Below are positions 2,468 through 64,000 of a stretch of DNA of 64,000 nucleotides, one piece after another (position 1 is the stretch's first letter; each line of letters begins with the position of its first letter). The stretch comes from an uncultured Pseudomonadota bacterium. GTDB lineage: Bacteria > Bdellovibrionota_B > Oligoflexia > Oligoflexales > CAIYRB01. Where the stretch lies: positions 1 to 64,000 of the forward strand of contig CAIYRB010000084.1 in NCBI GenBank assembly GCA_903928445.1, given 5' to 3'. The notes under the pieces were generated by a model. The model did not search any database. It saw nothing but the letters and a program-made list of their open reading frames with translations, and was not told the DNA's origin. The translations under genes were made by a program, and so were the position numbers.

Positions 2468-3311
2468 TGCGAGGGTCTCCAAGCCCATTTCGGGCATCCC
2501 AAATCTCGGGAAAAAAGCGCTTCGCTAACGTCATCGTCAGATACTTCACACCGCTGGAACCGCCGGTGCCCATACGGTTGCCGATCATCCGTTGGACCAT
2601 GACTACATGGCGCTGGCGCCAGAGCAGCAGTCCTTCATCCAAATCCATGAGCGATTCCAGAGTTGAGTATAGATCATAGTAGCGCTCAGGTTCCCGGTAA
2701 ATCTGCACAATCGCTGCAAGAACCTCCGCACTGGCGACATATGGCTGGGTGAGGTCTCGTTCAGTCACCGCCAGAGGAATGGCAAACCCACGCCTTTTCA
2801 ACAAGCGCAAGAAGACGTCATACAGGCTCGGCTGCGCTAGCGCTTCGCCCAGGGCGGCTCGTGCCAGTGGGTCATGGAGATGAAAGCGCTGATAGTTGGG
2901 GTCTTTGGCGCCGAGGCGGAATTCGAGAACGCGGAACTGAAAGGACTGAAAGCCACTGGCGGGATTCAGCTGGTCGCGAAATGCGTTAAAATCGACCGGT
3001 GTCATCGTTTCCAGGATATCCACCTGGCTCGTCAGCACGGCCTGAATCTTGCTGATGCGGTTGGCAATCCGGCCAAATCCCATGAGCTGACCGGTCTCCA
3101 CGGCATCGGTTGCTTTGCCAACCTCGTGGAGAATTTGCTTGAACCAGAGCTCATAGACCTGGTGGATCAAGATGAAGAGCATTTCGTCGTGCTGACGCGG
3201 CATGGTCAATGGCTGCTGCAGTGCCAGCAGCTCATGGACCTTCAAGTACGACCCATAGGTTACCGCCTGCGCGGCTGGTTGGATCAGCGCCTCTGCTTGA
3301 TGCTCCGCCAT
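2409..3311 (-). CDS. kynA: tryptophan 2,3-dioxygenase
   Basis: About 300 residues, a heme enzyme oxidising L-tryptophan to N-formylkynurenine, first step of the kynurenine pathway. The family signatures are all present: YGSYL, HDEMLFILIHQVYELWFK, ASGFQSFQFRVLE, and the C-terminal LLWRQRHVVMVQRMIG followed by GTGGSSGVKYL and RFFPEIWDAR. The start at 3311 has a strong AGGTGGAG eight bases upstream; an ATG 24 bases earlier is less likely. It sits 51 bp after the methyltransferase and overlaps the aminotransferase. No formamidase or kynureninase gene is visible here, so the pathway continues elsewhere or is diverted. Confidence 0.95.
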   Translation of the reverse strand: MAEHQAEALIQPAAQAVTYGSYLKVHELLALQQPLTMPRQHDEMLFILIHQVYELWFKQILHEVGKATDAVETGQLMGFGRIANRISKIQAVLTSQVDILETMTPVDFNAFRDQLNPASGFQSFQFRVLEFRLGAKDPNYQRFHLHDPLARAALGEALAQPSLYDVFLRLLKRRGFAIPLAVTERDLTQPYVASAEVLAAIVQIYREPERYYDLYSTLESLMDLDEGLLLWRQRHVVMVQRMIGNRMGTGGSSGVKYLTMTLAKRFFPEIWDARNGLGDPRNEYGKDANPRSDEGQQDHG

Positions 3312-4841: not shown

Positions 4842-5981
4842 CTAATAAATCCAGTCCGATTGATCGACAGGCGGGTGTGGACGGATAGCTTTAAGCGAGC
4901 GGCGGAAGACCTTAACGCCGAGGTTTTTGGTGAAGTGCTTCCACGTCTTCCACTCTTCTTCCAAGGTCCGCACGCTGTAGGGCGTGTTGGGTGACTTCGA
5001 CCCTTTGGAAAAGGTATAGCCTTCAAACAAATAGGTCGCAGTGTGCCGAATCCAGTGAAAATCGGCAGGTCCATCTGGGTGCTGGACAAAAGCATCGGGG
5101 ACATCAAATAGCACCAGCATATCGCCGAATTTGATCGGTTGCTTCTCCGGCTCGACTTCATAGAATTCCTGGTTCAACACCCGCCACAGCTCGTCGTAGT
5201 TGATCATGGCTCGATGATAACCAACCTCATGCTTCACGTTGATCTGTGAAGAGCTAGTCAGCAGAGGACTTTGAAAGGCTAGTGCCGCGTGGAAGCAGTT
5301 TGGCCCCCGGTAAATGATGAATTTTTTAACCATGCTGCGGGCGAACTCTGGCAGAAGGTCGGTATTGACGTTCAGGTCATCACCTTTATTAATCTTAACC
5401 TGAATGGCCTTGCGCTCAGCCACAGAGAGAAACGGGCTAACTTCATGCAACAGCTTTCTACGCGCGGCTCGGTCTCCCTTGAGCCCGGCACCGTCGATGG
5501 TTAGATTGTGTTGCGGTTTGGCATAAAGGTCAGCCAGCGCTTCATGATCGATAAAACCGAAGGCTTCGCGGTTGATCGCGACCGTTCGTGCTGACGGCAG
5601 GACCCTAATCTCCGGGGACTTTTTAATCTGGCGGCGGATATAGACGGCAAGGTCGTCCTCCTTGCCCTTGATCGCAAGCTTTTCGGCCATGGCCGAGATC
5701 TGAGCTTCGGTGGAGCCCAGCATGACGGTAATGGGCTCCACGGTCTCGTCCGTCGTCGACTCCACCAGGCGCTGTTGCATGACGGAAAGCGGCATTTTGA
5801 CGGTCTCGACCTCATCCTTGATTGAGAGTCGTAACGCGCTGCTAAAACTAGATATTTTATAGGAAAACGGCTTGATGTCGGCCTTAAACTGAATAACCGC
5901 ATAACTCGGTCTGGAGCACAGACTGGCGACGGCGCAGCAGACATGCATTAGGTTAAACCGTAAGTACCGCCCGAAAATCAT
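4842..5981 (-). CDS. secreted NlpC/P60-like (papain-fold) protein, putative
   Basis: 379 residues with an N-terminal signal-like segment (cleavage plausible after SRPSYA near residue 28). The middle is charged and unrecognised. The C-terminal third resembles an NlpC/P60 or CHAP-type papain-fold module: a candidate nucleophile Cys in RGPNCFHAAL, then the GDMLVLFDV strand and a candidate His in IRHTATYLFEGYTF, in the usual Cys-then-His order. That would suggest a cell-wall peptide hydrolase or amide hydrolase in the periplasm. Assignment is by eye only and the third catalytic residue is not identified. GAGGAAGGT lies just before the ATG. The gene is separated by 108 bp from rlmD downstream. Confidence 0.6.
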   Translation of the reverse strand: MIFGRYLRFNLMHVCCAVASLCSRPSYAVIQFKADIKPFSYKISSFSSALRLSIKDEVETVKMPLSVMQQRLVESTTDETVEPITVMLGSTEAQISAMAEKLAIKGKEDDLAVYIRRQIKKSPEIRVLPSARTVAINREAFGFIDHEALADLYAKPQHNLTIDGAGLKGDRAARRKLLHEVSPFLSVAERKAIQVKINKGDDLNVNTDLLPEFARSMVKKFIIYRGPNCFHAALAFQSPLLTSSSQINVKHEVGYHRAMINYDELWRVLNQEFYEVEPEKQPIKFGDMLVLFDVPDAFVQHPDGPADFHWIRHTATYLFEGYTFSKGSKSPNTPYSVRTLEEEWKTWKHFTKNLGVKVFRRSLKAIRPHPPVDQSDWIY

Positions 5982-61517: not shown

Positions 61518-61870
61518 GGGGGCGTCCTGGTTTCGACGGGTACGCTAGCTGAATTTGAGAGCATGCCGAGGGTGGTAACGTGACCTCGTTAACAATGCGT
61601 TACAACGCTTAGTCGGCAACGATTACGCACTCGCAGCTTAATTAAGCTGCCGTCGAACTAAAGGGTGTCGATACCTTTAGGGAGGCGCCATAACATCGAC
61701 TTGGTGTCCGGGCTTTCCATCTGTAGGCCTTGGCATGACGACAATCAGACTGCGACCAGTCAAGCCTGTCCGCTGGCTCGATCGGTAAGAGGAAAATTTA
61801 CGGAATAAGCATGTAGTCGCTCTTTTCATCTCGTATTCGGACGAGGGTTCGATTCCCTCCGCCTCCACCA
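61518..61870 (+). ncRNA. ssrA: transfer-messenger RNA (tmRNA)
   Basis: 353 nt, one-piece tmRNA. The 5' end GGGGGCG pairs with CGCCTCC before the encoded ACCA; the T arm is GAGGGTTCGATTCCCTC. The 5' half contains the near-universal GGTTTCGACGGG. The resume codon is at 61615 after TTAGTC; the reading frame GGC-AAC-GAT-TAC-GCA-CTC-GCA-GCT-TAA (61615-61641) gives tag (A)GNDYALAA, only eight encoded residues. A candidate -35 TTGGAC lies at 61468-61473. tmRNA rescues stalled ribosomes with SmpB. Its 3' end doubles as an attachment site. Confidence 0.97.
61847..61870 (+). repeat. left direct repeat (att site) within the tmRNA 3' end
   Basis: 24 bp covering the T loop, T-stem 3' strand, acceptor and CCA of ssrA. 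It is identical to 63347-63370. The flanking bases differ on both sides, so the match ends cleanly. Confidence 0.9.
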
Positions 61871-62070
61871 CCTCATCCTCCAGCTACGTCCGACCAACCA
61901 CATCGGAGCCAAAAGTGGGCGTTCGGTTTGTTGCCTGCTGGTCATTAGTGGTATTGCAAAGAGAAACCACTGTGCGAAGAGAAGGCTGGACCTACGAAGA
62001 CATAAATACTTTATCGTTTGCCATGATTGGTTACCTATAGCTTATCAGCAAGTAAGTCGAATAAGGCGTC

Positions 62071-62709
62071 TCAACCCTGCTTGACCGGCTTCAAGTCTTC
62101 AATGCGGTGCTGAGATTTGAACGCTGCCGCCAGCTTTGCAACATTCGGCTCCAGGCGCGCCTGTAAATCTACCAGGAGTCCACCACCCTCTGGCTGCTCA
62201 CGCTTGCCGCTCGTAAGGTTAATCCTGTGATAGTCTTCGGCGGAGCTAATGCCTAGCTTGGTCGCATACAGAAGTTTTAGCCGGACCTGCTTATCGGGAC
62301 TAAAGGCAAAGCCAGTTTTGCCAGTCTCGCATTTCGAATAGTAAGACACCGACTCCATCTCGATCTCGTCGATGACCTCCTGCTGGGTCAGGCCAAACAT
62401 CAGGCGGAGAAATTTAATCTCTTTAGGCGCTAGAATGCGCTCATTGACCACAAGGTTAGTTGCCAAGATATGTTCCACGAGCCCTTGAAAGCCGGGCAGG
62501 AAAAAAGCTGCCTTGCATTTCGGGCACGCGACGAAGGAGGCAGTGGGGAGAAGCACAGCCCCTAGGCCACTCAGGGGGAACGGCACATTGTTCTGCACCA
62601 AAAGACCCCATGTCCCGTCGCAGCTTGGATCCTGATGGTGATGAATAAAGTCCTCTTGCCGCACCTCGCCGGCCAAGGATACCGCGATTTTCTTATCACC
62701 AGATGTCAT
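62071..62709 (-). CDS. MqsA-like zinc-finger/HTH regulator
   Basis: 212 residues. A CPKC pair (Cys62, Cys65) and an earlier Cys30 could form a zinc site. Residues 92-135 (ILAPKEIKFLRLMFGLTQQEVIDEIEMESVSYYSKCETGK) match the HTH of MqsA/YgiT-type antitoxin-regulators, where LTxxEIRFLR-x-x-LGLSQ is typical. A C-terminal extension of about 75 residues is unrecognised. GGAGGTGC precedes the ATG. It overlaps the upstream gene by 14 bp, the order (partner first, HTH second) seen in mqsRA and higBA. It probably represses the operon and may neutralise the partner. Confidence 0.75.
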   Translation of the reverse strand: MTSGDKKIAVSLAGEVRQEDFIHHHQDPSCDGTWGLLVQNNVPFPLSGLGAVLLPTASFVACPKCKAAFFLPGFQGLVEHILATNLVVNERILAPKEIKFLRLMFGLTQQEVIDEIEMESVSYYSKCETGKTGFAFSPDKQVRLKLLYATKLGISSAEDYHRINLTSGKREQPEGGGLLVDLQARLEPNVAKLAAAFKSQHRIEDLKPVKQG

Positions 62710-63145
62710 GGGGCACCTCCGGAAGAGTCATGAGGTCCGCGGGCGAACTGCCGAGCGGGTGGATCGTCACCACCAGGTGTTTAGCTGATCCTTCTCGGAC
62801 CACAATGCGGACGCCGATATTTTGATGCTTCAACTCGCGAATGGGGTTGAAGAGTGTTTCGACCAGGTCTGCAAAACGACCGTCGAATACCGCCTCGATG
62901 GGTGGCGTGGTTCTGCAGTTCTGGCTGCGTAGAGTTCCGTTGATGATCAATGACGCCATCTTTTCTTGGTCAATGGCATTTCTGATGTCCTGACCTGCGG
63001 CCTGCGCCCGCCATGCTATGTGCCCAACGTCAACGTCCATCCGACTCTTGAACGACTTAGGGGACCTGCAGATATCGCGGACCTGGTTCACGAACTTTTC
63101 GAGGCGCCGGTCGTTCATAGACTGTGTAGTCCCTAGCTCACCCAC
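62696..63145 (-). CDS. unknown first gene of the ssrA mini-element operon
   Basis: 149 residues from GTG 63145 with AGGAGGG just upstream (ATG at MNDRRLEKF nine codons later is an alternative). It is soluble: a helical N-half (RRLEKFVNQVRDICRSPKSF) and a C-half with strands (TTPPIEAVFDGRFADLVETLF, IGVRIVVREGSAKHLVVTIHPL). The final RIVVRE ... HLVVTIHP pair recalls small RNase-toxin folds of DUF4258/RelE type, but the catalytic pattern is not evident. By position it is the candidate toxin or effector beside the MqsA-like gene. That role is inference. Confidence 0.7.
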   Translation of the reverse strand: MGELGTTQSMNDRRLEKFVNQVRDICRSPKSFKSRMDVDVGHIAWRAQAAGQDIRNAIDQEKMASLIINGTLRSQNCRTTPPIEAVFDGRFADLVETLFNPIRELKHQNIGVRIVVREGSAKHLVVTIHPLGSSPADLMTLPEVPHDIW

Positions 63146-63346
63146 TTAGCCCTCCTAATGCCGCAGCCTCCCCTATACAGAATTATAGCATCCACGACAA
63201 GCGCTAGCACTGAACGCTAATCGGCATTTTTGGGAGAAAACTTTAGGCCAGGGTGCCAAGCCTCCGCTTTATAGGGGCATATTTGGGGGTACAAACTTCC
63301 AAAAAATTTAAAATAAATATAGAATAATTAGTGCCTTAACAGTTGC

Positions 63347-63370
63347 GTTCGATTCCCTCCGCCTCCACCA
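63347..63370 (+). repeat. right direct repeat (att site), tmRNA 3'-end fragment
   Basis: Exact copy of 61847-61870, with no tmRNA sequence before it. It would be the attR (or original attB remainder) of the mini-element. Between it and the next frame (63371-63597) I see no gene with an SD; an 86-codon frame at 63380-63640 is unconvincing. Confidence 0.9.
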
Positions 63371-63597
63371 ACCCTTTTCTTGGCCCTCGAGGAACCGCAA
63401 GTTGATCTTCGCGGTGAGGCTGGCGTTAAAAATCATATTACGTGCCTTCGCCTCGCCATGTTTTTGCATCCAGCCATCTCAGACATTTCAAAGAATGTGC
63501 GGCTGAGAACATCAATAGCGTCAGGGGCTAATGGGGTCAGGGGCACACCATCAACCCATCTATGCACGAAGACTGCAGAAGGGAAAAGAAAGATGGG

Positions 63598-64000
63598 GTG
63601 CCCTGCGCACCTGGAAACCGAACTCGCCTTCCGCCAATAGAACTAACTGATACTATTACCTTTAATCTGCATCAACCCTACATGGACGAGGCGTTCCTCC
63701 GGCAAAAATATGTCGATGAAAGGCTCTCAATTGACGAGATTTCGACGCTCACAAGTTCCGCCAGGACCACCATACGCAAGTACCTCAAACACTACGAGAT
63801 ACCGATACGGCGACCAGGTGAAAACTTGCGGCAGAAGCTCAGCCTCGCCTATGGCCGCCGGTTGGCCAGCCGCTACGAGGTCGATCACAAGCGGGAGCTT
63901 GAGACGATTGAGAAGATGAAGGACCTGCGGCACCAGGGCTACTCCTACTGGAAGATCGCCTCCATTTTAAACACAATGCAGATTCCAACAAAGACCCGTA
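63598..64000 (+). CDS. recombinase-like HTH protein (partial, runs off window)
   Basis: The frame is open from 63532 to the window end. The start is uncertain: GTG 63598, ATG 63562 or ATG 63682, none with a strong SD. The product contains a first HTH (YMDEAFLRQKYVDERLSIDEI ... ARTTIRKYLKHYEIPIRRPGE) and then a region ending TIEKMKDLRHQGYSYWKIASILNTMQIPTKTR. The latter is the C-terminal HTH typical of serine-recombinase-family proteins (GxSYxxIAxxLNxxxIPT). No catalytic resolvase domain is visible before it, so it may be a stand-alone DNA-binding derivative. It lies 228 bp after the right att repeat. Confidence 0.6.
   Translation, partial: MPCAPGNRTRLPPIELTDTITFNLHQPYMDEAFLRQKYVDERLSIDEISTLTSSARTTIRKYLKHYEIPIRRPGENLRQKLSLAYGRRLASRYEVDHKRELETIEKMKDLRHQGYSYWKIASILNTMQIPTKTR

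Follow-up and report, generated by a model that had tools for sequence, protein, structure and literature searches.

The 1.5-kb unit that directly follows the tmRNA gene in the stretch of DNA analysed here (the window: 64,000 nucleotides of a contig of 89,956 bp, C84, from assembly G000) is a genuine insertion at ssrA, containing two overlapping genes and no integrase. With modest confidence we regard it as the minimal remnant of a decayed ssrA island of the tyrosine-integrase kind, reduced in the manner of a CIME to its two ends and an addiction-type operon, and it is probably not mobile by itself. The features concerned are as follows.

61518..61870, plus strand: ssrA, an intact tmRNA gene (tag GNDYALAA) whose 3' end is the left half-site (ARAGORN)
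61847..61870, plus strand: left copy of a 24-bp repeat, attL-like, the last 24 bp of ssrA (exact repeat)
61871..61930, no strand: left end of the insert, 60 bp, absent from the cargo copy in genome G005 and without GGGGGTA (BLAST boundary, motif scan)
61931..63265, no strand: cargo block shared with contig C33 of G005, where it is not at ssrA (96.7% nucleotide identity)
62071..62709, minus strand: MqsA-like helix-turn-helix protein of 212 aa, a putative antitoxin, with conserved Cys/His in its N-terminal part (ORF; TIGR03830; Foldseek)
62696..63145, minus strand: partner protein of 149 aa, a putative toxin, its gene overlapping the next by 14 bp (ORF)
63218..63245, minus strand: sigma-28 (FliA)-like promoter, TAAAGTTT-N12-GCCGATTA, 72 bp upstream of the GTG start of the 149-aa gene (sequence match)
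63266..63346, no strand: right end of the insert, 81 bp, 31% GC, absent from the G005 cargo copy, with an arm-site-like GGGGGTA at 63285-63291 (BLAST boundary, motif scan)
63347..63370, plus strand: right copy of the 24-bp repeat, attR-like, the displaced ssrA 3' end (exact repeat; the chromosomal flank of genome G001 resumes here)
63371..63491, plus strand: chromosomal sequence that follows ssrA in the empty site (77.7% identity with G001 across 121 bp)

The initial annotation had drawn attention to an exact recurrence of the last 24 bp of ssrA at a distance of 1500 bp, with nothing of the tmRNA ahead of the second copy, and both points stand: the two copies have zero mismatches, they start 1500 bp apart, and the base preceding the right one already mismatches ssrA. 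A chance repeat is ruled out (about 5e-10 exact occurrences of such a 24-mer would be expected in the window), and when the 4.85-Mb assembly was searched with the repeat 23-mer, allowing up to two mismatches, the copies at 61847 and 63347 were the only sites. Integration at ssrA, which had been read from the repeat, is borne out by a genome of the same genus, G001, in which the site is empty, ssrA (...CCACCA) running directly into the sequence that lies 3' of the second repeat in the window. The ssrA genes of the two are 100% identical over 353 nt, and the 1517 bp to the left (ssrA and the repeat excluded) are 92.9% identical. The same empty site rules out an arrangement of core genes common to relatives. 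Islands with an integrase are familiar occupants of tRNA and tmRNA genes; of the marks by which an ssrA genomic island is recognized, the locus has ssrA, a direct repeat of its displaced 3' end and absence of the insert from a relative, but the insert encodes neither a tyrosine nor a serine integrase.

That the insert holds just two overlapping genes was also correctly seen: apart from these minus-strand ORFs, no stop-to-stop stretch between the repeats exceeds 78 codons, so there is no room for an integrase. It had been conceded that the second repeat might be part of a larger island with its integrase further right. Such an island with a tyrosine integrase is ruled out as far as the contig reaches, the family Phage_integrase (PF00589) having no match on the 90-kb contig (all seven matches in the assembly are on other contigs); in addition, ORFs of at least 110 aa were read to the contig end. 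Past the second repeat, from 63562 on, a protein of 182 aa is encoded in which HTH-like segments and part of a Recombinase domain (PF07508, E=2.5e-5) were recognized; a resolvase catalytic domain is absent, so it does not resemble an integrase. Elsewhere in the assembly, contigs C192 and C155 have similar layouts, in which a RecQ-like end (named by reading) precedes a short tyrosine recombinase, and one of the two contigs has a shortened form of it.

The cargo looks like a toxin–antitoxin operon, judging from its layout and distant sequence similarities. It has the broad type II organization of small co-directional genes, with the 14-bp overlap and a weak helix-turn-helix match (HTH_3, E=0.031, in the 212-aa protein), and the pair is kept together: homologues in the same gene order occur at five loci in four of 56 genomes (own assembly included), namely G000, G005 (twice), G031 and G033. 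Beyond those genomes, one scan of genome contigs gave a single further match to the 212-aa family, a weak one in Clostridia. The putative antitoxin matches the MqsA-family model TIGR03830 at E=5e-4, its 19.8 bits being far below the 61.8 cut-off; its predicted structure (pLDDT 74.5) has E. coli MqsA (3gn5) as the first PDB match in Foldseek (prob 0.95, E=0.013, TM-scores 0.23/0.35), and H25, C30, C62 and C65 are common to four aligned homologues. In MqsRA, too, the partner gene comes first, followed by that of a helix-turn-helix protein with a Cys-containing N-terminal part. The cargo resembles MqsRA in this gene order and in its best fold match, but the antitoxin candidate stays below the MqsA-family cut-off and the 149-aa partner matches no family, neither the MqsR model nor any other in Pfam and NCBIfam. 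One of four aligned homologues of the 149-aa protein matched DUF4258 (E=0.012). The structural model of the 149-aa protein is uneven (the best of five has pLDDT 76.9, the others 47-53) and gave no clear fold match in the PDB.

The promoter-like site ahead of the operon, called against what we take to be the sigma-28 (FliA) consensus, is the sole match in the window, and none was found in 100 shuffles. Per genome, such sites number 10 in G000, 10 in G005, 11 in G001 and 24 in G003, with 0 in a reversed control; among 30 sites for which the downstream ORF was read, about 19 precede lipoprotein-like or secreted-protein-like genes (by eye), two precede copies of the toxin–antitoxin operon, and two are masked.

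Most of the insert has a second home. In G005 the cargo block lies on contig C33 and ssrA on contig C7, and the copy has neither the 60-bp left end nor the 81-bp right end of the window insert. As the cargo is 96.7% identical between G000 and G005, against only 86% for their ssrA genes, the comparison shows that the block evidently spreads horizontally. The 149-aa genes differ at six nucleotides (five codons synonymous, one not) and the 212-aa genes at 14 (eight codons synonymous, six not). The neighbours of the block on C33 include RES/Xre-like and transposase-like ORFs and an integrase fragment, all named by reading only.

The ends of the insert are more informative about its possible ancestry. 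Another genome of the same genus, G003, has at ssrA an island with an integrase (Arm-DNA-bind_3, Phage_int_M and Phage_integrase domains), presumably of P4 type, that starts about 165 bp from ssrA. If the displaced repeat on contig C79 of G003 is taken as the other end of this island, the heptamer GGGGGTA stands 61 and 73 bp before it, and three more copies lie within 135 bp after ssrA. The window insert has a single copy, 63 bp ahead of the displaced repeat, and none on the ssrA side; the insert of G033 (see below) likewise has one, 59 bp before its displaced repeat, and none on the ssrA side. Across both strands of the 64-kb window there are just two copies of the motif. We read GGGGGTA as a candidate arm-type site of the integrase, and the missing left-side copies in the window insert and in G033 fit a deletion of the integrase side. 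The motif was absent within 300 bp of the displaced repeats in G004 and G365. Beyond GGGGGTA the right ends have no significant similarity (best BLAST E 0.03), nor did BLAST detect any between the left end of the window insert and those of G003, G005 and G002. In G004, contig C9 has a displaced ssrA repeat at 76-98 and, some 3 kb into the contig, an ORF that reads like a recombinase; this seems to be a larger ssrA island.

Whether the cassette seen in the window recurs behind other ssrA genes had been raised by the initial annotation, and the answer is divided: the same build is found in G033, G005 and G365, in each with different cargo, and the window's own cargo is found in G005 away from ssrA. 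In G033 (locus L077), ssrA occupies 2787-3148 and the displaced repeat 4867-4889, at a spacing of 1741 bp. Between them are two overlapping minus-strand genes recognized by the PADLOC models PDC-M21B (E=5e-55) and PDC-M21A (E=3e-18), and no integrase is among the ORFs. In G039, of the same genus as G033, no insert separates ssrA from the flank found after the repeat in G033 (67% identical, 474 columns including the repeat). The ssrA insert of G005, 1.76 kb long, encodes AbiEi and AbiEii (Pfam AbiEii, E=8e-26) and again no integrase. Its right flank is the sequence directly after ssrA in contig C87 of G002 (92.5% identical, 161 bp), and its right repeat is unrecognisable. The first 114 bp match the left end of the G003 island at 81.6% identity, and the first 100 bp match the sequence after ssrA in contig C35 of G002 at 86%. 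This last contig (L049, 3628 bp) has both ends inside ssrA, sharing ssrA positions 168-230, which suggests a tandem duplication of ssrA with an upstream gene, or a circle. The insert of G365, from the phylum of a Clostridia MAG (taken here to be Bacillota), has a spacing of 2070 bp and contains genes for MazE (E=1.4e-16) and PemK/MazF (E=1.5e-26), together with an HTH protein and a DUF6773 protein, and no integrase.

Two of these inserts, those of G000 and G033, came with a partly blind census in which a pattern for the ssrA end matched 21 of 58 genomes of the window's phylum; they are the only two genomes of the 58 with a same-contig repeat pair closer than 3 kb. Three other genomes with two hits were left out as mini-inserts: G003 and G022, with hits on different contigs, and G039, in which one ssrA is split by contigs overlapping by 119 bp. 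The AbiE insert of G005 was found by reading the locus, outside the pattern census. Contig C8 of G022 (L079, 5078-5100) has a stray ssrA 3' end, where ARAGORN found no tmRNA; the tmRNA gene of that genome is on C14. In a second census, likewise partly blind and covering the phylum of the Clostridia MAG, the pattern matched 164 of 398 genomes and same-contig pairs were picked by eye; among the matches listed there was at least one pair closer than 3 kb (G365, 2.07 kb), and longer pairs were those of G361 (6.5 kb, an interval with two integrase-like ORFs, by reading), G292 (15.4 and 10.6 kb) and G158 (155 kb). For G365, the comparison with relatives consisted of a list of ssrA-end matches across the five genomes of its order.

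How might such an insert have come about? In the reading that we favour, an island with a tyrosine integrase would have entered the 3' end of ssrA, restoring the gene, and a later deletion would have removed the integrase and other genes. There would remain attL (24 bp and about 60 bp), the two-gene toxin–antitoxin-like operon, and attR (an AT-rich arm of about 80 bp and 24 bp). The operon may then have been kept through addiction, since a cell that lost it would be exposed to the toxin once the short-lived antitoxin had gone, or through a benefit in phage defence, and selection against deletion of an addictive last operon would explain why four inserts have ended as a toxin–antitoxin or defence pair. 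The integrase-bearing ssrA island in the same genus, with GGGGGTA 61 bp from its repeat against 63 bp in the window, speaks for such a remnant, as does the AbiE insert of G005, which retains a G003-like left end but no integrase. The empty site with its exact repeats, the horizontal spread of the cargo and the other integrase-less ssrA inserts point the same way. Against it, the insert contains no fragment of an integrase that would reveal a larger ancestor, and no copy of an ICE or IME ancestor was found; the insert ends have little in common beyond GGGGGTA, which G004 and G365 lack near their displaced repeats; the 149-aa protein matches no family and the MqsA-family score is low; the relatives are assemblies in many contigs; and exact, undecayed repeats could mean a recent element that still recombines.

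A different view of why the operon persists, leaving its origin aside, is that phage pressure maintains it as an anti-phage defence cassette, addiction playing no part. We hold this to be possible, if rather doubtful. The AbiE and PDC-M21 pairs seen in the other inserts count as defence systems or candidates for such, and ssrA is described as flanking a defence hotspot in Pseudomonas aeruginosa (PMC10250203) and Pseudomonas tmRNA islands as carrying putative defence systems (PMC12595487), but at E 0.1 no PADLOC model matches either protein of the insert. The initial annotation had offered two interpretations, a trans-mobilised satellite and a minimal defence or addiction cassette. The second fits the anatomy of the insert and the inserts of G033, G005 and G365; the first fares less well.

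If the insert were a mini-element mobilised in trans, its att ends would be used by an ssrA-specific integrase of another element, much as CALIN arrays and MITEs, which have no recombinase of their own, are movable by a helper (PMC11389934). The exact and undecayed repeats would agree with this, as would the short ends that closely bound the cargo, the recurrence of this build around other cargo in G033 and G365, and the presence within the genus of a possible helper integrase, that of G003. However, the insert is a single copy in an assembly that is 94.66% complete, a tblastn comparison with the G003 integrase found nothing similar among the seven PF00589 loci there (E 5.6 or worse), the GGGGGTA sites on the ssrA side are missing, and the G005 cargo copy travels without the ends. 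A helper could possibly reside elsewhere than in this assembly, and the likeness to CALIN arrays and MITEs would hold only if movement in trans were accepted; a single copy bounded by ssrA direct repeats is unlike either. We think mobilisation in trans unlikely; decay of an island with retention of its operon is the more economical reading.

Entry by homologous recombination (e.g. transformation) from a donor with an occupied ssrA, with no site-specific integration here, seems to us distinctly improbable: the right flank is indeed only 77.7% identical to G001 (121 bp), against the 92.9% on the left and 97.6% in the 986 bp that begin at contig position 68678, and a 37-bp piece of the tRNA-His 3' flank is present twice, but the diverged stretch is short and intergenic and may simply evolve faster. 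The interval from ssrA to tRNA-His looks mosaic by sequence comparison, and the cassette may therefore have arrived within a longer stretch by such recombination. The second copy of the tRNA-His 3' flank piece lies at 63564-63600, and about 5 kb up to position 68678 of C84, with a gene for an AAA_14/DUF4143 ATPase, is absent from G001.

Returning to the decayed-island reading, its closest formal counterpart is the CIME, an element that has lost its integration and transfer genes while attL and attR are kept (PMC5704250). The structure of the window insert fits: the exact 24-bp repeats are in place with putative att function, and neither of the two genes matches families of integration or transfer genes. 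It is unlike a CIME in having only one operon and no integrative element beside it, and an ICE or IME origin is putative. Islands at ssrA without an integrase are already known from Dehalococcoides, where 15 of 31 ssrA islands have no integration module; it was proposed that these might be cis-mobilizable elements (PMC3146451). Like the window insert, they are at ssrA with direct repeats of its 3' end as borders, but in Dehalococcoides there are a serine recombinase (DsiB) and tandem arrays with dehalogenase cargo, whereas the window insert is a lone 1.5-kb toxin–antitoxin-like unit with a hint of a tyrosine integrase. The tmRNA islands I23, I44 and I55 of Pseudomonas fluorescens lie directly after tmRNA, with direct repeats, putative defence cargo and no transfer genes (PMC12595487); they encode the tyrosine integrase IntY and AlpA, whereas the window insert encodes no integrase. 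At the level of titles and the opening lines of abstracts, we found no description of integrase-less toxin–antitoxin inserts of 1.5-2 kb at ssrA. The novelty lies in the reduction to a single operon and in the finding of this minimal form around unrelated cargos.

Searches that begin from an integrase would miss inserts such as that of the window. There are now four, of which three come from a single order and the fourth from another phylum; no two have the same toxin–antitoxin or defence pair, and they suggest either that toxin–antitoxin operons are the last to survive the decay of islands, or that a minimal mobile format exists. In the latter vein one may speculate, as a long shot, about a scattered class of integrase-less 'tmRNA cassettes' of 1.5-2.1 kb, with ssrA att ends and one interchangeable toxin–antitoxin or defence pair, moved in trans by ssrA integrases; if real, these would be the counterpart, at the tmRNA site, of integrase-less integron cassettes.
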